12,625 nucleotides of DNA from Clostridiales bacterium (GTDB taxonomy: Bacteria > Bacillota > Clostridia > Oscillospirales > Oscillospiraceae). The notes beneath the pieces were generated by a model. It searched no databases. It saw nothing but the letters and a program-made list of their open reading frames with translations, and was not told the DNA's origin. Below, piece by piece: positions 24-10,223 of this stretch (position 1 is the stretch's first letter; every line of letters starts with the position of its first letter). A program made the position numbers and the translations under genes. The stretch is from contig PITX01000014.1 in NCBI GenBank assembly GCA_017577345.1, positions 1 through 12,625 on the forward strand, written 5' to 3'.

Positions 24-52
24 TTGATTTTCAACCGCTCTCCTGTTATAAT
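24..52 (+). promoter_or_regulatory. Sigma-A-type promoter of the broken tRNA-Ser
   Basis: TTGATT (24-29) and TATAAT (47-52) are separated by exactly 17 bases, which predicts a transcription start near position 59. That is about 12 bases before the first base of the tRNA-Ser fragment at 71. The near-consensus boxes and their distance to a tRNA 5' end suggest the original promoter of the host tRNA gene. The -10 box lies in an AT-rich loop between short arms TCCTG (41-45) and CAGGA (56-60), which may be chance. Confidence 0.6.
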
Positions 53-70
53 AATCAGGACTTTGGACAT

Positions 71-111
71 GGAGAGGTATCGAAGTGGTCATAACGGGGC
101 TGACTCGAAAT
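71..111 (+). pseudogene. 5' half of a tRNA-Ser(CGA) gene, cut after the anticodon loop
   Basis: The stretch reads as a class II tRNA-Ser up to the anticodon loop: acceptor 5' strand GGAGAGG (71-77), a D arm with the GTGGTC core, anticodon 5' stem CTGA, and loop CTCGAAA with anticodon CGA at 106-108. The 3' side of the anticodon stem should read TCAG but reads TAGA. No T arm or acceptor 3' strand (CCTCTCC) follows. The gene therefore breaks off in or just after the anticodon loop. It keeps a good promoter, so it looks like a formerly functional chromosomal gene. The simplest explanation is an integration event whose crossover lies in the anticodon loop, with the 3' half at the far end of the element, outside this window. 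A deletion could give the same picture. Confidence 0.65.
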
Positions 112-144
112 AGAAGACCGCTTTGGTCATTTCCTCCATCGAAC

Positions 145-175
145 AAGTCCGTACTATAGGGCTTTTAGGGGGTTC
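145..175 (+). repeat. Imperfect direct repeat, left copy
   Basis: AAGTC, then about ten variable bases, then GGCTTTTAGGGGGTTC (160-175). The same pattern, with 15 of 16 bases matching in the second block, recurs at 475-506 on the other side of the intact tRNA-Ser. GGGGGTTC also resembles the start of a tRNA T arm, but the expected continuation GAATCCC is absent. It could be an integrase-binding repeat or a decayed tRNA fragment. Confidence 0.45.
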
Positions 176-212
176 ATATTCCACAATTTCCTAGTTTTCT
201 TGCCTGTTTTTC

Positions 213-241
213 TTGCATTTGGTCACAGCACGGATTACAGT
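213..241 (+). promoter_or_regulatory. Candidate promoter of the intact tRNA-Ser
   Basis: TTGCAT (213-218) and TACAGT (236-241) are 17 bases apart, which predicts initiation at about 248, a few bases before the mature tRNA 5' end at 252. Each box matches consensus at four of six positions. Spacing and placement are better than the boxes themselves. Read-through from the promoter at 24-52 is an alternative source of the transcript. Confidence 0.4.
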
Positions 242-251
242 TAAGATATAC

Positions 252-339
252 GGAGAGTTGTCCGAGTGGTCGAAGGTGCAGCACTCGAAATGCTGTGTGG
301 GGCAACCCACCTAGGGTTCGAATCCCTAACTCTCCGCCA
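252..339 (+). tRNA. tRNA-Ser (anticodon CGA), complete
   Basis: This is a complete class II serine tRNA reading UCG codons. The acceptor arm is GGAGAGT (252-258) with ACTCTCC (329-335), seven pairs, followed by discriminator G336 and an encoded CCA (337-339). The anticodon stem is CAGCA/TGCTG (279-283 with 291-295) around loop CTCGAAA, with CGA at 286-288. The long variable arm (about 296-312) and the T-arm TTCGAAT are present. A terminator follows immediately. It shares its anticodon and the string ACTCGAAAT with the broken tRNA-Ser 180 bases upstream, yet differs from it in the D arm (TCCGAGTGGTCGAAGG against TCGAAGTGGTCATAACGG), so it is not a simple duplicate. The integrase gene starts the next coding region and is convergent, as is common beside a tRNA attachment site. 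Confidence 0.95.
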
Positions 340-380
340 AAAAGTCCAGTAAACTCAAGGGGTTTCTGGACTTTTTCTTT
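339..380 (+). terminator. Rho-independent terminator of the tRNA-Ser
   Basis: An 11-base perfect stem, AAAAAGTCCAG (339-349) with CTGGACTTTTT (366-376), is extended by an inner stem AAACTC/GGGTTT (351-356 with 360-365). It runs into a T-rich tail to 380. It starts in the CCA end, so it terminates the tRNA transcript directly. Confidence 0.85.
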
Positions 381-530: not shown

Positions 531-1715
531 TTACCAGCCCTGACTTTTGGTTTCCGGAAGCGTCAGAACATTGTCCATTACGTTTGCAGAAGTGATCTTC
601 GATTTGTAGTCCAGATGACTGTAAATATTCGCCGTTGTGCTGATGTCGCTGTGGCCGAGCCATTCCTGGATCTGCTTCATCGGAACATCATTGGCAAGCA
701 GCAGCGAAGCGCAGCTGTGCCGGAGATCGTGAAAACGGATGTGCCGCAGACCGTTTCTCTTCAAAATCTTGCTGAAGTTCTCCGTGACCGCATCCGGACT
801 GAAGATCGTTCCCATAGCGTCCACAAAGATATAACTGTCGTAGTCGTAGTTATAACAGTTTCCGCAGACACGCTTGTTTTCCTTCTGCTGCTCTTTCAGT
901 TCCAGAAGCTTTTCTCTGAAATGTCCTACCAACGGAAGCGAACGTAAACTTGATTTTGTTTTGGCGCGGTCCTCGCTGATGATCACAGATTTGCCGTCTA
1001 CCATTGTCTCAGTTACAATATGCCTGATGGTGATGGTATCTCGCTCAAAGTCGATCGCGTCCCATCTCAGGCCAAGCGCTTCACTTCGTCTCAGCCCGTA
1101 AAATGCGGTCATCTGGATCAGCAAGGAATACGGATGATCCTTCGTCACTTCAAAAAGCTTCTCCAGCTCATCCAGCCGGTAGTAATCGGCAATATATTTC
1201 TGCTTTTTCGGACGCTCCACCTTGTCAGCGGGATTGAACGGAATGAGGTCCATTTTTACGGCATATTTCAGAGCTTTATGGATATTTGCATGCTCGTGAA
1301 TTACTGAGTTGGCGGAAATGGTTTTCAGCTCATGCAGATAAAAGCTCTGAATATGCTTGGCCTGAAGACCGCCGAGTGTGAGGCCTGTATCGCGAAAATA
1401 CGGTACGATCTTTCCCTTCACCGTCTGCGTGTAGGATGAAAAAGTCGTCTTTTCCACGGAGCCGCGAATGATCTCCAGCCACGTTTCCATGTAATCGGCA
1501 AACAGCATATCTGCGGAAAGATCCTCGGTTTTGTTGTTTTCCGGCGGTACGAAGCTTTTTCTCACATCCATCAACATTTTCTCGGCGCGTTTTTTGTTTT
1601 TCTTTGCGGGAAGTCCTGTCGGGATCCACGGCTGCTTTCGCTTGCCGTCGGAGTCTCTGTAACTCAGGACCATATAGTAATAGTCGTTTTTAATTTGCAG
1701 GTGTCCTGCTACCAT
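531..1715 (-). CDS. int: Site-specific tyrosine recombinase (integrase)
   Basis: A 394-residue phage/ICE-type tyrosine integrase that would integrate and excise the element. An N-terminal arm-binding region (about residues 1-60) is followed by a SAM-like core-binding domain (about 70-170) and the catalytic domain (180-385). All catalytic residues are visible: R209 in YGLRRSE, K254 in KTKSS, H329-x-x-R332 in HDLRH, H355 in LGHSD and nucleophile Y365 in NIYSHL. A CxxC pair (C284, C287) lies in the catalytic domain. An ATG 29 codons upstream is possible, but AAAGGAGG sits 8 bases before the ATG at 1715, and the upstream stretch overlaps a hairpin and a promoter, so 1715 is preferred. The gene ends about 190 bases from the intact tRNA-Ser, the usual place for an integrase that uses a tRNA site. 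Confidence 0.93.
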   Translation of the reverse strand: MVAGHLQIKNDYYYMVLSYRDSDGKRKQPWIPTGLPAKKNKKRAEKMLMDVRKSFVPPENNKTEDLSADMLFADYMETWLEIIRGSVEKTTFSSYTQTVKGKIVPYFRDTGLTLGGLQAKHIQSFYLHELKTISANSVIHEHANIHKALKYAVKMDLIPFNPADKVERPKKQKYIADYYRLDELEKLFEVTKDHPYSLLIQMTAFYGLRRSEALGLRWDAIDFERDTITIRHIVTETMVDGKSVIISEDRAKTKSSLRSLPLVGHFREKLLELKEQQKENKRVCGNCYNYDYDSYIFVDAMGTIFSPDAVTENFSKILKRNGLRHIRFHDLRHSCASLLLANDVPMKQIQEWLGHSDISTTANIYSHLDYKSKITSANVMDNVLTLPETKSQGW

Positions 1716-1747
1716 AAGCTTTACCTCCTTTGTTGATAGCAAAAAGA

Positions 1748-1798
1748 ACGGGCACCCTTTCGGACCGTAATCATTATATGGCCTACCGGGATGCCCGT
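1748..1798 (-). terminator. Terminator hairpin insulating int from the upstream operon
   Basis: On the minus strand ACGGGCATCC (1798-1789) pairs with GGGTGCCCGT (1757-1748), ten pairs including one G-U, followed by TTCTTTTT. The loop is about 31 bases. Transcripts entering from the xis/parB/mob operon should stop here. The candidate int promoter lies inside the hairpin, so a transcript started there lacks the first arm and should escape. Confidence 0.6.
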
Positions 1799-1802
1799 CC
1801 AA
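1773..1802 (-). promoter_or_regulatory. Candidate promoter of int
   Basis: On the minus strand TTGGAC (1802-1797) and a perfect TATAAT (1778-1773) are 18 bases apart. Initiation would fall near 1766, about 50 bases before the int ATG at 1715 and its AAAGGAGG site. The -35 box coincides with the first arm of the hairpin at 1748-1798. Confidence 0.6.
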
Positions 1803-1829: not shown

Positions 1830-2060
1830 TTACGCTGTCGCTCCGGAATTACCCGCTGAAAGTGCATACCTGATCACGTTGACCTTCGGAACACGGTATG
1901 CGTTACCAATCTTGATGCCGGGGATATATCCGTCATTGATCAATGCGTAAGCCAGATGACGGCTGATCTTCAGCATAGACTGCACCTGCGCCACGTTTAC
2001 GATATCCGGGTACTCAGTAAACATCACCTCGTACAATGCCTGAATCTCAGCCTTAGTCAT
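1830..2060 (-). CDS. xis: Excisionase-like helix-turn-helix protein
   Basis: A 76-residue basic DNA-binding protein of the excisionase/MerR-like winged-helix type. Residues about 18-65 carry the pattern of an HTH (VAQVQSMLKISRHLAYALI), a turn with GYIPGIKIG and then YRVPKVNVIRY, typical of excision directionality factors and 'helix-turn-helix domain, excisionase family' proteins. A start at 2078 gives six more residues, but GGAGGTG lies 7 bases before the ATG at 2060, so 2060 is preferred. This start overlaps the end of the upstream acidic-protein gene by eight bases (ATGACTAA), indicating translational coupling. It sits directly upstream of int, separated by a terminator and the int promoter. 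The family is fairly clear; the exact role (excision or repression) is inferred from context. Confidence 0.75.
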   Translation of the reverse strand: MTKAEIQALYEVMFTEYPDIVNVAQVQSMLKISRHLAYALINDGYIPGIKIGNAYRVPKVNVIRYALSAGNSGATA

Positions 2061-2535
2061 CCGCACCACCTCCGTCATCGTCTAACAGGTGGTCGAGCAG
2101 GTCGTTGAATGTTTTCTCGCTGTTCACCGGCTCGAGCCAAAGCCCGTCCTCGTCCTCCTCATCATCGTCCCGGTCGTCATCCCAGTCATCGTCCCAATCG
2201 TCGTCGAGATCCTCCTCGTCATCAGATTCCACGCTCATGGCAACGCGCGGTGCAAGGTCGTCGAACACCCGTTCGATTTTATTGTGGAGGCCTGCGGTGA
2301 CATAGCCGATTTCTCTCCAGTCGAGAGCAAAGGTCAGCTCATGGTCAAATTCGTCCGTAAAAGACGCAGCCATGCTTCCGTTGCTGAAGGCAGTCCCATC
2401 CTTGAGACATTCGTTGTAGTCCGTGAGCAGCATTTCCACGAGCATACTGCCCGGCAGCGAAAAATCGTTGATCATCCGGTCAAGCTCGGCCATTCTGCCT
2501 GCGTTCATCCTGTTTACTTCAATTTTGATACTCAT
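2053..2535 (-). CDS. Hypothetical protein with an Asp/Glu-rich segment
   Basis: A 160-residue protein that I do not recognise. Residues 1-100 look like a folded, mostly helical and beta mixed domain starting MSIKIEVNRM. Residues 104-130 are almost entirely Asp and Glu, with a DDDW-DDDW-DDDR-DDD four-residue repeat that is visible in the DNA as imperfect 12-base repeats. A short tail ending DDDGGGADD follows. The ribosome site AAGGGGA is 7 bases before the ATG. It lies 20 bases after the ParB-like gene and overlaps the Xis-like gene by eight bases, so it belongs to the same operon. Strong negative charge next to DNA-binding proteins suggests a DNA mimic or a partner that masks a basic protein, but that is a guess. 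The Asp stretch may also be just a flexible linker. Confidence 0.8.
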   Translation of the reverse strand: MSIKIEVNRMNAGRMAELDRMINDFSLPGSMLVEMLLTDYNECLKDGTAFSNGSMAASFTDEFDHELTFALDWREIGYVTAGLHNKIERVFDDLAPRVAMSVESDDEEDLDDDWDDDWDDDRDDDEEDEDGLWLEPVNSEKTFNDLLDHLLDDDGGGADD

Positions 2536-2555: not shown

Positions 2556-3491
2556 TCAGCGGGCGTCGCGATTGCTGCGCTGACGCTCCAGATATTGTTT
2601 GTAATATTCCATGGCCTTGACGATCGTCTCGGTCATCTGTTTCATAGAAGTTTCCGGACGGAAATAGCTGCGAAGCGATTCCATCGGAACCTTTACGTAC
2701 TCTACTTGATTTCCCTTGACTTCCGACATCAGGTGCAGCATCCCTTCTTCGGTCATCATGCCTTCTTCACTCATACGGCGCAGGCGCTGTGCCTGCGACA
2801 GCGAGGGTGTCACCTCATCGCTCTCCATCAGCGAAAGAAGACTCTCCTGTTCGGACGGCGGCAGATAGGAAAGCTCTACTGCCGGTGTCAGGGCGATTTT
2901 TCCGTCATCCACCATTTGGAGGATCGCGGGGATCAGATTGGTCAGACGGATGTAACGCTGGATTTGATTACGGCTATCGGGTGCATCCTCTGCCAAAGAA
3001 TCAATACTTTTTAATTGGTGACCAACTTGGTCACCATTTCCTTTTCTGCCGGGAGAACGCTTGATTGCCTCATATTTCATCTTATAGGCAAATGCCTTTT
3101 CAGACGGCAGGATATGCTCTCTCTGCAGATTGCTGTCTACCATCGTGATGACGGCTTCTTCATCCGTCAGATCGCGGATGATCACCGGCATCGTTTCCAT
3201 ACCGAGCGCCTTGCAGGCGGCAAGCCGTCTGTGCCCGGCGATCAGCTCATAGCCGTCCTCCTTCGGACGTGCCAGTGCGGGCACAAGCACTCCGGTCTCG
3301 GAGATACTGTGCATCAGTTGGGTCATCTCCTCATCATTTTTCACCTTGAACGGGTGGTTGTGAAACGGTACAAGCTTTGACAGCTCGATTTCCTCTACTT
3401 TCGGTTTTTTCTTGTCTGCCCGTTCCTCGGAACTCATAAACAGCTCCTCGTAGCCGGTCAGGCCGAGATCGATCTTTTTCGGTTCTTTCAT
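2556..3491 (-). CDS. parB: ParB/RepB/Spo0J-family protein
   Basis: A 311-residue ParB-type protein that would bind DNA for partition or regulation of the element. It shows the N-terminal ParB/sulfiredoxin-like domain: VEEIELSKLVPFHNHPF (32-48), GYELIAGHRRLAACKALG (80-97, nucleotide-binding box) and NLQREHILPSEKAFAY (121-136). A central HTH region (about 163-225) and a C-terminal helical part with basic residues follow. AAGGAGG is 7 bases before the ATG. It is 21 bases downstream of the relaxase and 20 bases upstream of the acidic protein. No ParA is seen in the window; the only P-loop ATPase is RepA-like. It may act without ParA, as a transcriptional regulator, or with the host ParA. Family assignment is firm, role less so. 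Confidence 0.88.
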   Translation of the reverse strand: MKEPKKIDLGLTGYEELFMSSEERADKKKPKVEEIELSKLVPFHNHPFKVKNDEEMTQLMHSISETGVLVPALARPKEDGYELIAGHRRLAACKALGMETMPVIIRDLTDEEAVITMVDSNLQREHILPSEKAFAYKMKYEAIKRSPGRKGNGDQVGHQLKSIDSLAEDAPDSRNQIQRYIRLTNLIPAILQMVDDGKIALTPAVELSYLPPSEQESLLSLMESDEVTPSLSQAQRLRRMSEEGMMTEEGMLHLMSEVKGNQVEYVKVPMESLRSYFRPETSMKQMTETIVKAMEYYKQYLERQRSNRDAR

Positions 3492-3512: not shown

Positions 3513-4973
3513 TTATCGATCTTGCCACTCTCCTTTGATCTGCACATTGTGCAGTACGTTTTTCTGCTGCTCCGACAGGGACGGATCGGCTTCGATTAGC
3601 GTCTCATACTCGCATTCAAGCAGCTCTTTGATTTTCGGATTGTCATCCAGAATGTTCTGTGCCGTCTTCACCTCCTTTCGCAGTCCTTCAATGACCGTCG
3701 TGCAGTCGGCACACAGGCGCTTCAGCTTCTCCCGTTCAGTAGGCTCTCTGCAGTTGCGCTGCTTATTGCGGATCTTGTTTCGGTCAGCAATGAAGCCTTG
3801 CATCTTTTCCTCCGTCGTTTCCAGAAAGCGCTGAACATCCTCCGGGGTCTTGAAGCTTTCTCTGCCTGCCAGCGTCAGCTCTGCCGTATAACGGTCGAGC
3901 TTTCGCAGAGCTTCACGGCATTCGGGAGAAAGCGGCTTTTGATACTCGTTCTCCAACGGCTCCAGGCCGAGGATCACGCTGAAGCAGCGAAGCACGATAG
4001 TGATGCCGGAGACTCTGGTCATTTGAAAATAGAAATCCCGTCTGCGGCGGTGTGTTTCCGCTTCAGACGGGTTCATCCCCTTATTTCGCCAGCTTCCGGA
4101 GTGCTGTGCCATAAACTCCCGATAACCGTAAAACGCCTCGTCATTGTATCGGTTTTCTTCCATCCGGCACTCAATGGCTGTCCTGTCATAGTCCGCTCCG
4201 AGCCGGAAGGTACGCAGACATTTCTTTGACCGCAGTGAACGGATCGTCGGATACTTCCTGCCGTAATTCGGCTCGACGATATAGCCGAGCTTTCGCATCA
4301 CGCGGACAAGCTGTTCCCAGTCGACTGCCATTGACAGTCCCTCGTCCAACGCCTCGCGCATCAGGTTGTAGCGTGTCGGTTCCCCGTTCTTTTCGGCAAA
4401 GTAGACCGAACGCGCCGTCTTGTGCCGCTGTGGATCCTCGATGACGGACAGGTTATGCTCTCTGCAGAGACGGTCGGAGGTATCCCGCATTTTGTAATAG
4501 AGTGCCTTCTTTGCCGGCAGCCGCTGTCCGTCCCACATGCCGATGTTGTTCACGACAAAGTGGTTGTGGTAGGTGCCGGTGTTGAAATGCGTGGTGATCA
4601 GCATCTGGTACTTATTTCCCCAGAGCTCCTTTGCAAGCTCGACACCGATCCTGTGACAGTCCTCCGCAGAAACCTCGCCCGGCTTAAAGGACTGGTAGGC
4701 GTGATATGCAACGATCCCGCCGGTCTTTCCGTAGCGGCGTTTGACTGCATCCATTTCCTCTGCGGCTGTTTCCGCGCTGCAGTTGAGTGCCGTGACTGCA
4801 AAGCGGCTTTCATCGGAGAACTGTGTCTTTCCTTTGTCGGCTGCATAGGCAACGGCGCTTCTCAGTCCGTGCATCGACCGGACGGTTTCGTAGTCTGTCT
4901 TCTCCGGATTCATACAGTACGCCAGTGACCGGGCGACATTGTCATGGATCGGCCAGATCTTCGTGACTGCCAT
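3513..4973 (-). CDS. mobA: MOBP-type relaxase (mobilization nuclease)
   Basis: A 486-residue relaxase of the VirD2/MobA (MOBP) type that would nick oriT and lead the strand into a recipient. Motif I is SLAYCMNPEKT with the likely catalytic Tyr19. The metal-binding motif III is seen as H129 with HNHFVVNN (H136, H138), and HAYQSF with H91 is also typical. The C-terminal half (about 280-486) is helical and charged, of the length common in mobilizable elements. GGAGGGG lies upstream of the ATG at 4973. The start overlaps the end of mobC by 32 bases, so the two are coupled. No coupling protein or type IV secretion gene is present in the window, so this part encodes mobilization rather than self-transfer. 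Confidence 0.92.
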   Translation of the reverse strand: MAVTKIWPIHDNVARSLAYCMNPEKTDYETVRSMHGLRSAVAYAADKGKTQFSDESRFAVTALNCSAETAAEEMDAVKRRYGKTGGIVAYHAYQSFKPGEVSAEDCHRIGVELAKELWGNKYQMLITTHFNTGTYHNHFVVNNIGMWDGQRLPAKKALYYKMRDTSDRLCREHNLSVIEDPQRHKTARSVYFAEKNGEPTRYNLMREALDEGLSMAVDWEQLVRVMRKLGYIVEPNYGRKYPTIRSLRSKKCLRTFRLGADYDRTAIECRMEENRYNDEAFYGYREFMAQHSGSWRNKGMNPSEAETHRRRRDFYFQMTRVSGITIVLRCFSVILGLEPLENEYQKPLSPECREALRKLDRYTAELTLAGRESFKTPEDVQRFLETTEEKMQGFIADRNKIRNKQRNCREPTEREKLKRLCADCTTVIEGLRKEVKTAQNILDDNPKIKELLECEYETLIEADPSLSEQQKNVLHNVQIKGEWQDR

Positions 4974-5253
4974 CCGACATCACCCCTCCGAAACAATAAA
5001 ACTTCAGAATGTTCTGCATCAGTCTGCAAAGCCGCCGGACCGTCTGCGGATCGTCTGCCTTGCTGCTCGTCTGTTCGAGCAGGCCGTAGATCTCGGCAAG
5101 CTCCTTCTGCGGCGGTGGCTGCGGTGTCCCCTCCAGAGCGCAGACGCGGAGGTATTCCGACAGACTCATATTTGCCTTTTTTGCTTTCCTTCGGATCGTG
5201 CTTTTCTCGCTGTTGAAGACACGAACATTGATCGATTCCGTTCTGTTTCTCAT
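4942..5253 (-). CDS. mobC: MobC-like relaxosome accessory protein
   Basis: A 103-residue protein with an N-terminal ribbon-helix-helix (about residues 7-42: INVRVFNSEKSTIRRKAKK, then MSLSEYLRVCALEG), followed by a helical C-terminal part. This matches the MobC/plasmid mobilization relaxosome family, which binds oriT and aids strand opening for the relaxase. The open frame extends upstream to 5334, but GAGGAGG sits 6 bases before the ATG at 5253, and the extra N-terminus (Pro/Arg-rich) looks like translated intergenic DNA. It overlaps the relaxase start by 32 bases. Its position between the putative oriT spacer and the relaxase is the usual one. Confidence 0.85.
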   Translation of the reverse strand: MRNRTESINVRVFNSEKSTIRRKAKKANMSLSEYLRVCALEGTPQPPPQKELAEIYGLLEQTSSKADDPQTVRRLCRLMQNILKFYCFGGVMSDGSHEDLADP

Positions 5254-5453
5254 AGCATTCCTCCTCTCACAAAACGGGGTTACAGGGGCCGGCCCCTTTC
5301 GCGGCAGCGTCCGCGTGGGAATTTGGCAACACAAATTCCATGCTCGCTATCCTTACGGATATGCGCTTTCTCCGACCCTTCTGCGTTTGTGCCAAAGTGG
5401 CGCAATTTTCTTCGGCTACTCTGTGTTTTTGTGCCAAAAACGGGCATTTTGGC
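5254..5453. other. Putative oriT-containing spacer
   Basis: A 200-base non-coding stretch between repA and mobC, rich in symmetry: GGGGCCGGCCCC palindrome (5285-5296), a perfect 8-base inverted repeat GGAATTTG/CAAATTCC (5318-5325, 5332-5339) with a six-base loop, and a TATCC/GGATA hairpin (about 5348-5361). Clustered inverted repeats next to mobC are what an origin of transfer looks like. No nic-site consensus could be assigned with confidence, so oriT is an inference from position and structure. Confidence 0.5.
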
Positions 5454-5460
5454 TCAAAAC
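5386..5460. repeat. Iteron-like TTTGTGCCAAA repeats
   Basis: TTTGTGCCAAA occurs at 5386-5396 and, with longer flanks, at 5428-5438, exactly 42 bases apart (four helical turns). A related copy in inverse orientation (TTTTGAGCCAAAA on the minus strand) lies at about 5447-5459, overlapping the repA stop. They could bind MobC, the relaxase, a ParB-like protein or RepA. Confidence 0.5.
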
Positions 5461-6587
5461 GGGAAGTCCGGGTCGTCTTCCGTCACAAGCGGAAATGACG
5501 ATTGTGACGGTTGTGACGATTGATCCGGGGGCGACTCCTTATCGTCATTCTCCGCCTTTAGTGACGCAAGTATCTCGCTCCTCGAAACACCGTCATCATC
5601 GTCATCATCGTCACGCAGCGTCAGACAGATCGTCCGTGCGGCAGCAGTCTTGCGGTACTCATAGGTGATCCCCATTGGCGCAAGCACGGTGCTGTAATAG
5701 CGTGTCAGATATCTGCTTGCGATGTTCGGTCTGAGGTCATCGATCTCCAGAGCATCCAGAAGATCCGAGGTAGTCCCGTGAAACTCCCGGTGCAGCAGAA
5801 GGAAGTCGACCACCTGAAAAATAAATTCCGGTACCCGTTCCGTTTTCGGCTCGTACGGAGAGTTGTCCTCTATGACATGCCACGTCACGCCTTCCATCTC
5901 CAGAAACAGCTTCTTTTCTTCGATGTCGCGTCCGGTGATGCTGAAGGTGGCTTTGCCGCTGAAGCGGTCAACCTTCCGAAGGACCATACAGGTATCTGCC
6001 ACGCCCATGATCCCGGTCGAGCCGGTGATGTCGTTGAAGATGTTTCCGTTGTCCCGTTCCTTTCGGGTGTGATGTACGATGACGATGCAGATGCCGTGAT
6101 TGTCTGCGATCTTTTTCAGCGAGGACAGATCTTTGTAGTCCTGCGCGTAGGCATTGACCTTTGCCGAAACATTGTCACGAACCATCTGTAGAGTGTCGAT
6201 GAAGATCAGCCCTGTTCCCGGATGCTCCTTCAGGATCGTTTCGATCTGGTCCTCCAGCTCCTGTCCGAGTCTGCCGCAGGAGAAGCCGAACAGAAGATTC
6301 TCCGGCGGGTCCTCCTCGATCAGATCCTGCATACGCTGCTGGACGCGCCACTCGCGATCCTCCAAAGCCAGATACACGACATCCGTTTTGTGTGTCGGAC
6401 AGCCCCACACTGGCTCGCCTCTGCTGATCTGCAGGCAGAACCAGAGCACAAGCCAGCTTTTGCCGATTTTGGAGTCGCCTGCCAGAATCGCCAGACCGTC
6501 TGAAAGAATGCCGTCAATCAGCTGCTTCGGATGATTGAGCGGCTTATAGTACAGGGTCTCCGCATCGATCAGCGGTATTTTTCCCAT
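5454..6587 (-). CDS. repA: RepA-like RecA-fold helicase/ATPase
   Basis: A 377-residue RecA/KaiC-fold ATPase resembling the hexameric RepA helicases of mobilizable plasmids (RSF1010 type). Walker A is GDSKIGKS (37-44), Walker B is GLIFIDT (126-132), VIVHHTRK (169-176) fits the sensor region and GSTGIMGVAD (189-198) is typical of the family. Residues 215-320 include a probable winged-helix part. The C-terminus is low-complexity and acidic: seven consecutive Asp around residue 330, then Ser/Gln/Pro. GGGAGG is 9 bases before the ATG. It would unwind DNA for replication of the excised element; this is inferred. Upstream lie a hairpin (6622-6658) and a copy of a duplicated regulatory segment (6677-6760). 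Its 3' end overlaps the TTTGTGCCAAA repeats. Confidence 0.85.
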   Translation of the reverse strand: MGKIPLIDAETLYYKPLNHPKQLIDGILSDGLAILAGDSKIGKSWLVLWFCLQISRGEPVWGCPTHKTDVVYLALEDREWRVQQRMQDLIEEDPPENLLFGFSCGRLGQELEDQIETILKEHPGTGLIFIDTLQMVRDNVSAKVNAYAQDYKDLSSLKKIADNHGICIVIVHHTRKERDNGNIFNDITGSTGIMGVADTCMVLRKVDRFSGKATFSITGRDIEEKKLFLEMEGVTWHVIEDNSPYEPKTERVPEFIFQVVDFLLLHREFHGTTSDLLDALEIDDLRPNIASRYLTRYYSTVLAPMGITYEYRKTAAARTICLTLRDDDDDDDGVSRSEILASLKAENDDKESPPDQSSQPSQSSFPLVTEDDPDFPF

Positions 6588-6794: not shown

Positions 6795-7880
6795 CTACTC
6801 GCGGAGTCCAAGCAGATACTCAGTCACGACTTCAAGCGACTGGAGGAGCTGCTGCTTTTCCTCCTCCAAAAGTTCTGGAAAATCAGTACAGTACGCCTCA
6901 CAGGCTTTCTGAAATTTTTCTCCCTTCTCTCGGATAATCTCAAGAGCAAGAGACCGTTTACCTTTTCTTTTCAGTTCTTTCTGTGTTGCGAAAACTTCTT
7001 CAACCCTTGCGGTGACCTCTTCTTTTGGAAGATCTGCCCATTCCCCGATCACACTATGGGGCGGCAAGTAGCCACCTTCAAAAAGCTTCTGATGCGCACC
7101 GGGGCAGGCGGCTTCGGCGGCTTCGATCCCTTTTGTGAACTTGATTGCGCGTTCTTGCTTTGTTTCGATGGGATCAGATTCATCCTCCCGTCGGGCTTTT
7201 TCCTGTATTTCTTCCCGTATCCTGAAGATTTCTGCAACCTTTGCAGCAAGTTCCTCTTTGGGAAGCTTTGGCCATCTGGCGATTTCTTCTCTTGGCGGCA
7301 GATAGCCGCCGTGCAAAAGTTCCCATTTCACACCCGGGCAGGCGGCTTCAGCGGCTTCGATTCCTTTTGTGAACTTTAATGCACGGTTAACGGAAGCACT
7401 ACTGATGCCAAATTCTTTAGCAACTTTTTCGCATGTTTTTCTTTTTTCCTGTAAGTTCTCACTCTGACAACTTACAGCTCTGGTGCATCCATTTCCGCGA
7501 AATCCGTCGGAAGCCCCCCAAGTTTGTTTTTCCAATGCATACCGCATGCCAATTAAATATACCAACTGTTTAGGTGTTAAGTTTCGGCGTCCCACCTGGT
7601 TCTTACATATCCATGCAATTGCCTCGGCCCGGGTTGGCAATGTTACTTCCTGAATGTGGTACTCTAGTTCCGGATGCTTTAGAATGATCTGCCGTCTGTG
7701 ATGACCGTCGATCAGTATATTATTCCATACGACAAGCGGACTTGTGACCGCGCCGTCAGACAGGATGTTTTGCTCCAACTGCGAAAACTCGTCTTCGGTC
7801 AGCGGAGGGCATACCTTTTCGAACTCCGGGTCGATGATAATGCTTTTCAGTTGTTTGATTCTTTCTTCTGTTTCGTTCAT
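6795..7880 (-). CDS. Second ParB-like protein with an internal duplication
   Basis: A 361-residue protein with a ParB-type N-terminal domain: EEFSQ-like region, VTSPLVVWNNILIDGHHRRQIILKH (about 45-69, the ParB box) and NQVGRRNLTPKQLVYLIG (about 94-111). An HTH follows (CEKVAKEFGISSASVNRAL, about 150-168). After it, a 53-residue block starting ALKFTKGIEAAEAACPG (167-219) is repeated as AIKFTKGIEAAEAACPG (245-297). The C-terminus is helical and Lys/Glu-rich. AAAGGA is 7 bases before the ATG. It shares little with the ParB-like protein at 2556-3491 beyond the fold. The gene is flanked by the two copies of the duplicated regulatory segment. Such proteins are found on plasmids and elements as DNA-binding maintenance or regulatory factors; its exact role is unknown. 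Confidence 0.82.
   Translation of the reverse strand: MNETEERIKQLKSIIIDPEFEKVCPPLTEDEFSQLEQNILSDGAVTSPLVVWNNILIDGHHRRQIILKHPELEYHIQEVTLPTRAEAIAWICKNQVGRRNLTPKQLVYLIGMRYALEKQTWGASDGFRGNGCTRAVSCQSENLQEKRKTCEKVAKEFGISSASVNRALKFTKGIEAAEAACPGVKWELLHGGYLPPREEIARWPKLPKEELAAKVAEIFRIREEIQEKARREDESDPIETKQERAIKFTKGIEAAEAACPGAHQKLFEGGYLPPHSVIGEWADLPKEEVTARVEEVFATQKELKRKGKRSLALEIIREKGEKFQKACEAYCTDFPELLEEEKQQLLQSLEVVTEYLLGLRE
6990..7382 (-). repeat. Internal duplication in the parB-like gene
   Basis: Codons 167-219 (7382-7224) and 245-297 (7148-6990) encode the same block, 78 residues apart. The first 17 residues differ at only one position (ALKF/AIKF), with GGYLPP and LPKEE also kept. The DNA is still similar in the same places, so the duplication is fairly recent or under strong constraint. 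Confidence 0.8.
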
Positions 7881-8049: not shown

Positions 8050-9330
8050 ATGCCACTTTTTCTGTCCCGATTATCGTACTTATATGTTCTTATAATTAGG
8101 TCATCCGATAGGAGAAAAATCAGAAAGGATGTGGTCGCGACGGTACGGTTTGAAGGTTTGTTTGAGGTAGAATATAAGGACAGTAAGGTTTGTTTCGGCA
8201 GCAGCGAACAACCGGCAGGCTCTTTTGTCATTTCGCTGCTGAATCAGAACGACCGGGATCAGCTGTGGCATCGCTTTCTGCTTCTGAGTGACAGTGCCGT
8301 GCACCGCGTTAGGGACGAGCTTGCACACGGCTATGTGAACTGCGGGCATTTCGTTTCTGCAGGAGATGCCGCCGCACGGGCATTTGCACAGCTTACGGAG
8401 CTTCTGCCGATTTCGGAGGAGGATGCAAAGCGCGGAGCGCAGATGATCAGAGACCTGTTCTGTATTGAAAACGCGGCGGTGCTTCAAGAATATTTCCGAA
8501 AGCGGGCAGAGCTGTCCCTGCTCTCTCCCGAAGCAGTCGCTGATGGGGATGCGTTTGCAAAGTTCATCCCGGACAGTGCTTTCTTTGACGAGGCAGAAGA
8601 ACTGCGCAAAGAGGTTGTCAGAATACTGAAGTTCACGGATCAGCTGCCGTCGGATATCGAGGATGTCTGCAACAGGCTGGATGAATTCGTTTCCATCACC
8701 GCTTTGGAAGCAGATAAAAAAGAGGAAGAAGGCCTGCTATGGGAGGAACCCGTTCCGCAGGTCGTGCATTATGACAAGAAGCATCTTTTGCCGTACGCTT
8801 TGCAGGCATTTGAGGGGGTTCCGTTTTCGGTCATTCAGTGCCATTCCTTCATCCGGCATGACAAGGACGGCAGTCCTGTCTTTGCAAAGCGCATCAGCTT
8901 TGACAGGCTGTTTGACCTGATCGCAAACGATTTCTTTGAGGGTCTGCATTGCGGACATTATCCGCGGCGCTGTGCCGTCTGCGGAAAGGTTTTTCTGATG
9001 TGTGATGCGACAAGGCAGAAGTATTGCAATAGTCCTGCGTCGATAAAGGTCCGGGGAAAAATCCTCACCTGTAAACTGTATGCGGCAGCTATGGGCAAAA
9101 AGGAACGAGCAAAGGATGACCCTGTGGTGCGCGTCTATGATCGGATTTGCCAGTACATATACACCGCAAAAAGCCGCAAACAGCTCACGGCTTCCGATGA
9201 GGAGGCCTTCTGCAGGCACGCAGCACAGTTGAAGGAAAAAGTCAGGCGTGACAGCTCCTATTCGTTTGAAGCTTACACGGCTGATATGGCTGCTCTGGTC
9301 GCGAAAGTGAAACGGAGGATGAACGGTTGA
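8050..9330 (+). CDS. DUF6076-like protein with a cysteine cluster
   Basis: A long protein (426 residues from the ATG at 8050) that resembles the Firmicutes proteins annotated DUF6076; this is from memory and unverified. The N-terminal and middle parts are helical with no enzymatic motif I recognise. Near residue 308 a cysteine cluster RRCAVCGKVF (C308, C311), C318, C326 and C341 suggests a zinc-binding treble-clef or ribbon. The C-terminus is basic and helical. The start is uncertain: the ATG at 8050 has no ribosome site, and a GTG at 8131 is preceded by AGGAG and GAAAGGA at awkward spacings. The N-terminal 27 residues may therefore be untranslated. It overlaps the sigma-factor gene by TTGA, so the two are coupled and probably work together, for example as a regulator and sigma pair. 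No function is established. Confidence 0.75.
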   Translation: MPLFLSRLSYLYVLIIRSSDRRKIRKDVVATVRFEGLFEVEYKDSKVCFGSSEQPAGSFVISLLNQNDRDQLWHRFLLLSDSAVHRVRDELAHGYVNCGHFVSAGDAAARAFAQLTELLPISEEDAKRGAQMIRDLFCIENAAVLQEYFRKRAELSLLSPEAVADGDAFAKFIPDSAFFDEAEELRKEVVRILKFTDQLPSDIEDVCNRLDEFVSITALEADKKEEEGLLWEEPVPQVVHYDKKHLLPYALQAFEGVPFSVIQCHSFIRHDKDGSPVFAKRISFDRLFDLIANDFFEGLHCGHYPRRCAVCGKVFLMCDATRQKYCNSPASIKVRGKILTCKLYAAAMGKKERAKDDPVVRVYDRICQYIYTAKSRKQLTASDEEAFCRHAAQLKEKVRRDSSYSFEAYTADMAALVAKVKRRMNG

Positions 9331-10223
9331 AGGATTGGGAAGCTGATCTGAAGCGGTACCGCATTCTCCCCGCACCGCCGAAGATGCCGCTGCAGGAATA
9401 TATTGAACGCTGTCTTTCCGAAAAGGACAGCCAATACTTTGACTGGTTTCTGAACGCTTATGAGCGCAAGCTCAATAAGATCATCTCCGGCATTGTTCAG
9501 CGATACGCGATGTGCGGACACTTTGAGGATCTGAAGCAGTCGTATATCATCGGCATCTGGAATGCGCTTGCCGTCTACGATCCGTCGCGCGGCGTACCGT
9601 TTGAAAAGTTTATGAGGGCCTATTGCAACAGCGAGATCGACGAATATGTACGCACGATGCGCACCGGCTACACCGTCCCGAAAAAGAGCGAATACACAGA
9701 CCTCAAGAAAGTGATCCGGCTCTACCGCGAGTATGGGGAGAAAAGCGATCCTGAGACACTTGAAAGGATCCACGCCCAGACCGGCGTCAGCACGGACACG
9801 CTCAAAGAAATGCTTGTCGGAGCGCTGCGCAACGAGCACCCGCTGGAGCTGCAGGATGACGAATATGACGAGGACGGAGAAAACGATCCGTCGGTCTTTG
9901 AAGAACGCATTCCTGATTATTCGTCAGACCCGATGTGTGTCTGGCTGGAGCATCAGAAGGCGGATGCCGTATTCGGAGCCTTTTGCTCACTTTCAGTACG
10001 TGAACAGATGACTGTCTCAAAACGGCTGAACATCTGTCCGGACTGTCTCGATGTGCGTGAGCCGGTGACGGATGAATACGGGTCTGTTTCGTTCCGTGAA
10101 CGGGAGCGTTATCAGAAGTTCGAGGACATCGCGCTGGAGTTCGGTGAACGCCGCAGCACCGTGCAGCGTGTATTTCATGGTGCGATTGAAAAGATGCGAA
10201 AGCAGATCCTCAACGGCATGTGA
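9327..10223 (+). CDS. Sigma-70-family RNA polymerase sigma factor
   Basis: A 298-residue sigma-like protein. Region 2 is clear: a helical stretch ending in FEDLKQSYIIGIWNALAVYD (about 66-85), then RGVPFEKFMRAYCNSEIDEYVR (88-109). A middle part carries a region-3-like helix pair (about 118-165), then an acidic linker. Region 4 is the HTH EDIALEFGERRSTVQRVFHG (266-285) with a basic end. A CPDC pair sits just before region 4. The start is TTG at 9327, with GGAGG 8 bases upstream; it shares TTGA with the stop of the preceding gene. Proteins of this kind occur in Firmicutes integrative elements and may direct element promoters such as the duplicated segments here, which is inference. It could also be a sigma-like regulator rather than a true sigma factor. 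Confidence 0.82.
   Translation: MKDWEADLKRYRILPAPPKMPLQEYIERCLSEKDSQYFDWFLNAYERKLNKIISGIVQRYAMCGHFEDLKQSYIIGIWNALAVYDPSRGVPFEKFMRAYCNSEIDEYVRTMRTGYTVPKKSEYTDLKKVIRLYREYGEKSDPETLERIHAQTGVSTDTLKEMLVGALRNEHPLELQDDEYDEDGENDPSVFEERIPDYSSDPMCVWLEHQKADAVFGAFCSLSVREQMTVSKRLNICPDCLDVREPVTDEYGSVSFRERERYQKFEDIALEFGERRSTVQRVFHGAIEKMRKQILNGM

Follow-up and report, generated by a model that had tools for sequence, protein, structure and literature searches.

A tRNA-Ser(CGA) gene split in its anticodon loop beside a complete one: putative integrative elements that carry a replacement for the tRNA gene they break

How a mobile element comes to be lodged in a tRNA gene that it appears to have left broken is the question raised by the window analysed here, which is the whole of a 12,625-nucleotide contig (C50) from a clostridial genome assembly (G000) in 331 contigs. 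According to the accessible parts of earlier accounts, integration restores or spares its target (PMC4383910, PMC8371274, PMC5704250), and ordinary restoring cases have been reported (PMC3119063, PMC3202238, in the text available). Mending of the gene by attP is a standard reason for regarding tRNA genes as safe sites, a rule that the elements described below appear to break. From the left, the window holds a promoter with a tRNA-Ser(CGA) 5' half, a 140-bp stretch of different sequence, an entire tRNA-Ser(CGA) gene, a hairpin and an integrase gene, int.

The promoter of the split gene lies at 24..52 on the + strand (TTGATT-17-TATAAT, with TG ahead of the second hexamer, 10/12 matches and a sigma-70 score of 10.8). 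The 5' half, which is the host side of attL, occupies 71..110 (+) and ends with the anticodon loop CTCGAAA (104-110), as judged from an ARAGORN join and from stem pairs; tRNA character stops right after ACTCGAAAT (103..111, +), the crossover core common to both junctions, which measures 10 bp when the G at 102 is included. The stretch between the core and the carried tRNA (112..251, +) is assigned to the left end of the element by comparison with the left ends of relatives. No tRNA 3' half was found in it after the core, and ARAGORN called nothing in the left piece alone. The complete tRNA-Ser(CGA), the putative replacement gene, lies at 252..339 (+), scores 51.4 bits with Rfam, is the sole complete tRNA-Ser(cga) called there by ARAGORN and is the only intact tRNA-Ser(CGA) among the pattern matches in its own genome. 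A terminator-like hairpin at 341..376 (+), 3' of this gene, was read by eye; its long loop exceeds the limits of the scan, which did not report it. The initial annotation had described the succession of a promoter-bearing broken half, an intact tRNA of the same anticodon and int, and had held the two tRNA sequences not to be simple copies. The succession is confirmed by ARAGORN, Rfam and the promoter scan; the D arm and also the stems differ, so that the left half and the 252-339 gene are indeed not copies of each other. Chance is a poor explanation for the arrangement, since most of the relatives examined likewise have a broken half ahead of a full gene.

A search of the same genome returned one tRNA-Ser(CGA) 3' half, on contig C230 (L011), starting at about position 3576 and followed by a hairpin similar to the terminator-like one of the window. 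Joined to the left half, it gives an 89-nt tRNA-Ser(cga) in ARAGORN, with neither side called alone; the acceptor pairs are 7/7 and the anticodon-stem pairs 5/5, and the two junctions have in common GACTCGAAAT, 10 bp around the anticodon loop. As the C230 half and the left half make a complete tRNA and their junctions share just these 10 bp, the gene at 252-339 is best regarded as carried by the element. The initial annotation had named a right junction duplicating the 3' end of the 252-339 tRNA as evidence against its own proposal, namely that the element integrates in the anticodon loop, breaks the host gene and brings in a replacement. No second copy of that 3' end was found in the genome, where the best other match to the 252-339 tRNA is the C230 half itself (82%), and the proposal gains support from the missing 3' half beside what appears to be the other element end, from the shared core and from the stem pairing. 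Its alternative, an old scar with the intact tRNA as the true attB, fails, the C230 fragment being cognate to the left half.

In L011, we assign the sequence ahead of the core to the right end of the element because the 16-mer TTTTCTTGCCTGTTTT of the window (195-210) is present there in inverted orientation (L011 3410-3425). Repeat comparison gives, at 195..216 (+) of the window, a pair of TTCTTGC copies at a distance of 13 bp, which are candidate integrase sites of the arm type. A 7-base tandem repeat with the same 13-bp spacing, starting about 85 bases past the core, is present in the left end of all five elements tested, and the same lineage-specific motif also occurs in their right ends; the repeats would thus be arm sites of the integrase, as expected of such sites, an argument drawn only from the 16-mer and the fixed tandem spacing. 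Shared 8-mers of the attP arms were dropped as evidence, at least one inverted 8-mer being present in 55-80 of 200 shuffles. C50 and C230 are separate contigs of a fragmented metagenome assembly, and we infer their linkage from the cognate halves and the shared arm repeats. On the 3' side of the tRNA half in L011 is a broken integrase frame, 65% identical to the int product of the window over 137 residues and, like int in the window, less than 200 bp from the tRNA end. From this remnant it appears that an older element had probably brought in the gene now split, as its own carried tRNA.

A contig from human faeces that is recorded as a phage (MT836946.1, L267) has the order sequence unlike tRNA, core, left end, complete tRNA and int, with the left end of the element directly after its right end and joined to it at the core. 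Its 1876-bp match to an integrated locus (L087), 99.9% identical, breaks off three bases short of CTCGAAA; upstream of the loop, a tRNA 5' half is present in L087 and absent from L267. No terminal repeat was found in the MT836946.1 record, and the junction is read here as the attP of a circle or of tandem copies, an attP which, as read, is shown to hold no tRNA fragment. Moreover, at seven loci one kind of left end stands behind seven differing tRNA 5' halves with a mean identity of 54%, which places the boundary of the element at the anticodon loop. At another locus (L064), 639 bases from int, the core appears to link the right end of one element with the left end of a second in a tandem junction, and this right end is 93% like that of G004 over 241 bp.

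Cognate halves are not confined to the genome of the window. In 21 genomes searched with a pattern that other T-arm spellings would escape, seven cognate pairs rebuild tRNA-Ser(CGA) in six genomes (that of the window, G013, G005, G006, G004 and, twice, G012); in the remaining carriers, 3' halves were sought just for the Leu and Ser(UGA) cases. Acceptor and anticodon stems pair 7+5 in six of the seven and 7+4 in the other, whose mismatch is also present in the intact gene of L084. When the halves were joined 7 x 7, all against all, the cognate join scored highest in its own row, with a single tie that involves two almost identical genes. ARAGORN also accepted 19 of the 42 wrong joins, and its acceptance alone is therefore no proof of cognacy. 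The core common to both junctions is 8-10 bp long in all seven pairs, and the three pairs that lie on single contigs enclose elements of about 19.8 kb (G013), 16.6 kb (G005) and 26.0 kb (G006). Faecalibacterium longum (G012) has, on the left, 5'A and 5'B followed by intact C and int. On its contig C32 the order is 3'B, then an integrase gene (42% identical), a stretch of about 13 kb and 3'A; as far as the order of these pieces can tell, two nested levels are shown in the predicted arrangement, on separate contigs. G003 was rejected as a single-contig nested case, the 3' half (C34:134614) being cognate to neither 5' half of the array. The region concerned (L193/L192, C34:134614-152545) holds two 5' halves and an intact tRNA, with the non-cognate 3' half 18 kb off, and the mismatch suggests recombination between att sites of different elements.

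The frequency of the arrangement was assessed by a scan of genome contigs, which gave 265 integrase relatives, and the best 80 of the 265 were used. In 67 of these 80 loci, an exact-loop search finds tRNA-Ser(CGA) intact at no more than 1 kb from int; it misses carried tRNAs with a TTCGAAA loop (L039, L043, L063), which ARAGORN finds; the latter program calls a tRNA-Ser(CGA) within the 3 kb examined in 70/80 and none in 10/80. One or more broken 5' halves lie upstream in 60/80 loci, half and intact tRNA occur together in 55/80, and the spacing from the nearest half to the intact gene is mostly 179-218 bp, loop to loop. Two or three 5' halves are present at 17 of the 80 loci, as serial nesting predicts. 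No 5' half was found in 20/80 by the exact-loop half search, and 13 of these 20 have more than 1 kb of sequence past int, so that truncation at contig ends is not their explanation, which may lie in decay or another history. The two methods of half detection disagree on some loci, and L059, counted as half-less by one, has a half by the other. Single contigs of three genomes show the same architecture: the named strains G005 (Gemmiger formicilis An812) and G006 (Gemmiger gallinarum DSM 109015), and G013 (Clostridiales NK3B98), the record of which bears no MAG label. A search for relatives in IMG/VR gave 36 pattern matches, and none was confirmed by tblastn.

Other tRNA genes are targeted as well. 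Integrases matching at E <= 1e-95 were found in 33 of 300 genomes of the family (39 matches), and 27 new loci were analysed, of which 24 have a tRNA beside int and 22 have halves; these loci (L204-L230) are not independent of L013-L092, some carrying the same sequences. The targets include tRNA-Ser(UGA) at L224, tRNA-Leu(CAA) at L218, L221, L222 and L227, and tRNA-Leu(UAA) at L228 and, in the genus of the window, at L162/L163. The loops of the carried tRNAs of the clade fit YTYRAAA, and the targeted tRNAs (Ser CGA/UGA, Leu UAA/CAA) read UYR codons. Wherever a half was detected, a step that used the loop of the carried tRNA, the carried anticodon is the same as the split one, for four anticodons. 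Decoding of UUA and UCA needs tRNA-Leu(UAA) and tRNA-Ser(UGA), respectively. The cognate 3' half of tRNA-Leu(UAA) was found in G026, G036 and G230 and that of tRNA-Ser(UGA) in G078, and in each no intact copy other than the carried one was matched, in a search that copies with unusual spelling could escape. Two further loci were noted: at L252 (G184 C1:213170-213408) a tRNA-Leu(UAA) cut in the T loop is followed by a full tRNA-Leu(UAA) and int, and at L288 (G036 C23:23719-23773) a tRNA-Leu(CAA) 3' half marks a further split tRNA gene in the genus. In a tree of 102 integrases, which omits 22 near-duplicate or same-genome rows and matches shorter than 230 residues and has some unsure joins among long outer branches, all 63 half-bearing rows fall within one clade of 88 (support 100/96). 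Beside seven distant integrases at other tRNAs (Ala, Leu CAG, Gln, Tyr, Val) no halves were found, these seven not being all independent (L164/L172 are near-identical and L165/L174 share a tRNA). With halves confined to one clade and none beside these controls, replacement looks like a derived habit of a single integrase clade.

An uninterrupted gene in relatives without the element, to which the initial annotation had pointed as a check, does exist: tRNA-Ser(CGA) is uninterrupted in 10 of 16 further genomes from the genus, and up to 1.5 kb of sequence on each side of these genes yielded no such integrase, the contig of G030 ending just after the tRNA. At least two of the ten, G026 and G036, bear fossils of an older event, with a fossil 5' half containing an insertion of about 110 bp in its D loop upstream of the uninterrupted tRNA; the tRNA of G036 has the 5' half of a carried tRNA (L017). 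Given the fossil half upstream and the carried type of 5' half, the element in these genomes seems to have decayed and left its own tRNA behind. The insertion, present in fossil halves L186 and L190 and by eye also in L016 and L018, is similar across several genomes and looks like a small repeat element. In G021, G022, G028 and G029 a common gene lies upstream of the tRNA. Among 50 carrier genomes, the sole retained intact tRNA-Ser(CGA) match adjoins int in 40, four have more than one match, four have a match away from int and two have none. This count used 50 of the 80 loci and a pattern blind to TTCGAAA-loop carried tRNAs; 6 of 58 pattern matches were dropped by eye as not tRNA-like, and one retained row (G009, C97) may be non-intact.

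It is therefore considered very probable that these are split-and-replace elements, in which the target is cut in the anticodon loop, both halves are kept and a full gene of the same anticodon is carried. The matching junctions show recombination between attP and the 7-bp anticodon loop of the tRNA-Ser(CGA) gene, presumably by the tyrosine integrase; with no mending 3' half in attP the target is split, as the finding of both halves shows. The complete gene some 150 bp inside the left end would then take over, a role suggested by its position and by its being the only intact copy found. It would probably be transcribed by read-through from the promoter of the broken half, with subsequent RNase P cleavage and 3' trimming. 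Carrying the same loop, it could be split in turn by the next element, and in such serial splitting 5' halves would pile up on the left and 3' halves, then older int genes, on the right, the layout seen in G012 and, in outline, in the genome of the window. The host may in consequence depend on the carried tRNA.

Where the carried tRNA finds its promoter is less certain. Positions 1-540 of the window contain three promoter-like sites against a shuffle mean of 0.5, and the + strand has just two, which overlap and stand ahead of the left half. The promoter that the initial annotation had assigned to the intact tRNA itself is unsupported, as the scan finds none there and the 63 distinct sequences upstream of intact carried tRNAs, rated with an E. 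coli-like sigma-70 matrix that may not suit the host, score no better than shuffles (mean 4.85 vs 5.27, 8% exceeding the 95th percentile). Upstream of the outermost halves (59 distinct sequences) the mean is 8.75 vs 4.70 when shuffled, with 58% exceeding the shuffled 95th percentile; upstream of inner halves (n=20) it is 4.51 vs 4.92, with 5% exceeding it. A simpler mismatch count gave 4.95 vs 4.98 for 66 intact tRNAs and, for 78 halves with outer and inner pooled, the small difference of 4.78 vs 5.11. As the promoter signal sits before the outermost half, read-through from a captured host promoter is suggested, and the simplest reading would be a carried tRNA that has no promoter of its own and lives on that of the host. 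That replacement holds but the carried tRNA is served by its own promoter, weak or missed by the matrix, is a possible but rather doubtful reading in the face of these scores. A marginal TTGCAT-17-TACAGT (score 6.4) does precede the intact tRNA of the window, a read-through transcript would be several hundred bases long in arrays, and a terminator-like hairpin stands in 49 of 55 spacers, though also in 67% of shuffles, so that spacer terminators insulating the carried tRNA are no more than a possibility.

A different objection is that the left half is an unrelated older scar and that 252-339 is the host attB, restored by attP in the manner of a conventional element. The position of int, immediately 3' of an intact tRNA and directed towards it, is that of ordinary tDNA islands, and distant integrases in the genus do adjoin an intact tRNA without a broken half; such a history is nevertheless very improbable here, as no second fragment of 252-339 was found, the C230 half pairs fully with the left half, the one kind of left end is shared behind seven different 5' halves, and L267 and L087 diverge at the upstream loop and not at the intact tRNA. 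The fragmented state of the metagenome bin, with its 331 contigs, invites the suspicion of an assembly artefact, which is hardly credible given the single-contig examples in G005, G006 and G013. UCG can be read by tRNA-Ser(UGA), so tRNA-Ser(CGA) may be dispensable, and the carried tRNA might serve another purpose, such as resistance to anticodon nucleases or codon supply, its closeness to the loop being a by-product of attP evolution. Phages are described, in the accessible text of PMC10264068, as carrying altered tRNAs against tRNA-cutting defences. However, the identity of carried and split anticodons across four anticodons wherever a half was detected, and the splitting of Leu(UAA) and Ser(UGA) genes with the carried copy the sole intact one matched, make another purpose improbable, and replacement of the broken gene by the carried one is the reading retained.

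Tycheposons, to which the initial annotation likened the element, use the ordinary logic of restoring the target. The likeness stands for the tRNA border and the tyrosine recombinase; the accessible description (PMC10872708) mentions no splitting of a host tRNA with replacement. tDNA islands (Islander, Williams) likewise have a tyrosine integrase, a crossover subsite in the anticodon loop, int beside the tRNA gene and tandem arrays; in the available parts of PMC4383910, an attP fragment restores their target and leaves an intact gene and a displaced fragment. Here too a tyrosine integrase appears to act within a tRNA gene, but the displaced fragment is cognate to the left half and not to the intact tRNA beside int, no target-restoring tRNA fragment was found in window 112-251 or in the L267 attP, and a full, diverged gene replaces a target of which both halves survive. 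Integrative mobilizable elements (IMEs) similarly possess int, a MobA/VirD2-like relaxase, a NikA-like protein and variable cargo, and their accretion with decayed elements is known; in the portion of PMC5704250 available, their target is undisrupted and one repeat includes one target end, whereas here it is disrupted and replaced. Separate 5' and 3' halves in one genome also characterise archaeal split tRNA genes, whose pieces are transcribed and trans-spliced (PMC3218864, as far as accessible); in the present case the full gene exists as well, and the halves have the look of remnants. No description of a replacement-type element was found in the literature searched, which was accessible in part and lay mostly outside subscription journals, and a prior description is possible.

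A broader reading, held with moderate confidence, is that this clade of gut-bacterial elements takes over the promoter of a host tRNA and puts a gene of its own in the place of the discarded one, among class II tRNAs that read UYR codons, that each newcomer supplants the tRNA of its predecessor, that many Clostridia lineages have come to rely on mobile DNA for an essential decoder, and that fossil halves record the invasions. Supply of the whole gene would be an alternative solution to the problem of integrating in a tRNA gene, with only about 8-10 bp of identity needed from the host. This may explain a wide host range and the spread of one kind of element across families without matching the tRNA of each host. 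Needed tRNAs would become a trait of mobile DNA, with the reading of serine and leucine codons passing from element to element, and successive invasions could be read from the rows of broken halves. Programs that detect islands by an intact tRNA and the displaced fragment belonging to it can be expected to overlook such elements or to place them wrongly.

The gene content identifies the window as the putative left end of an integrative mobilizable element. All of the genes listed here lie on the - strand, beginning with int (531..1715; Phage_integrase 1.5e-28, with a SAM-like N-terminus), a tyrosine recombinase gene whose 3' end faces the carried tRNA; its frame is readable from 1802, and the alignments of many relatives begin near the ATG at 1715. 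It is followed by genes for an excisionase-like HTH protein (1830..2078; HTH_17, with an excisionase-family NCBIfam match below cut-off), a ParB-family protein (2556..3491, profile matches), a MobA/VirD2-like relaxase (3513..4973; PF03432 4.5e-35), a NikA-like mobilization accessory protein (4942..5334, profile match) and an AAA_25 ATPase (5454..6587, profile match), the last of which is RepA-like in our own reading. The window thus has the integrase, excisionase-like, relaxase and mobilization genes looked for in IMEs, and no complete conjugation machinery was found among the ORFs searched in this left part of the element. A relaxase is also present in the G005 element, and none was found among ten G013 proteins scanned, from the int-distal part. 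A second ParB-like protein and a sigma-factor-like protein are encoded at 6795-7880 and 9327-10223 of the window. The cargo is not constant, with phosphonate-type ABC transporter genes in L125 (G005) and, in L123 (G013), genes for Schlafen/AlbA, cytosine methylase, SNF2, Mrr and Fic proteins. By eye, a GGTCCGAAAGGGTGC-type stretch is present upstream of int (window 1741-1800) and again upstream of the HTH gene of the right end (L011 3327-3345), and may be a shared regulatory site.
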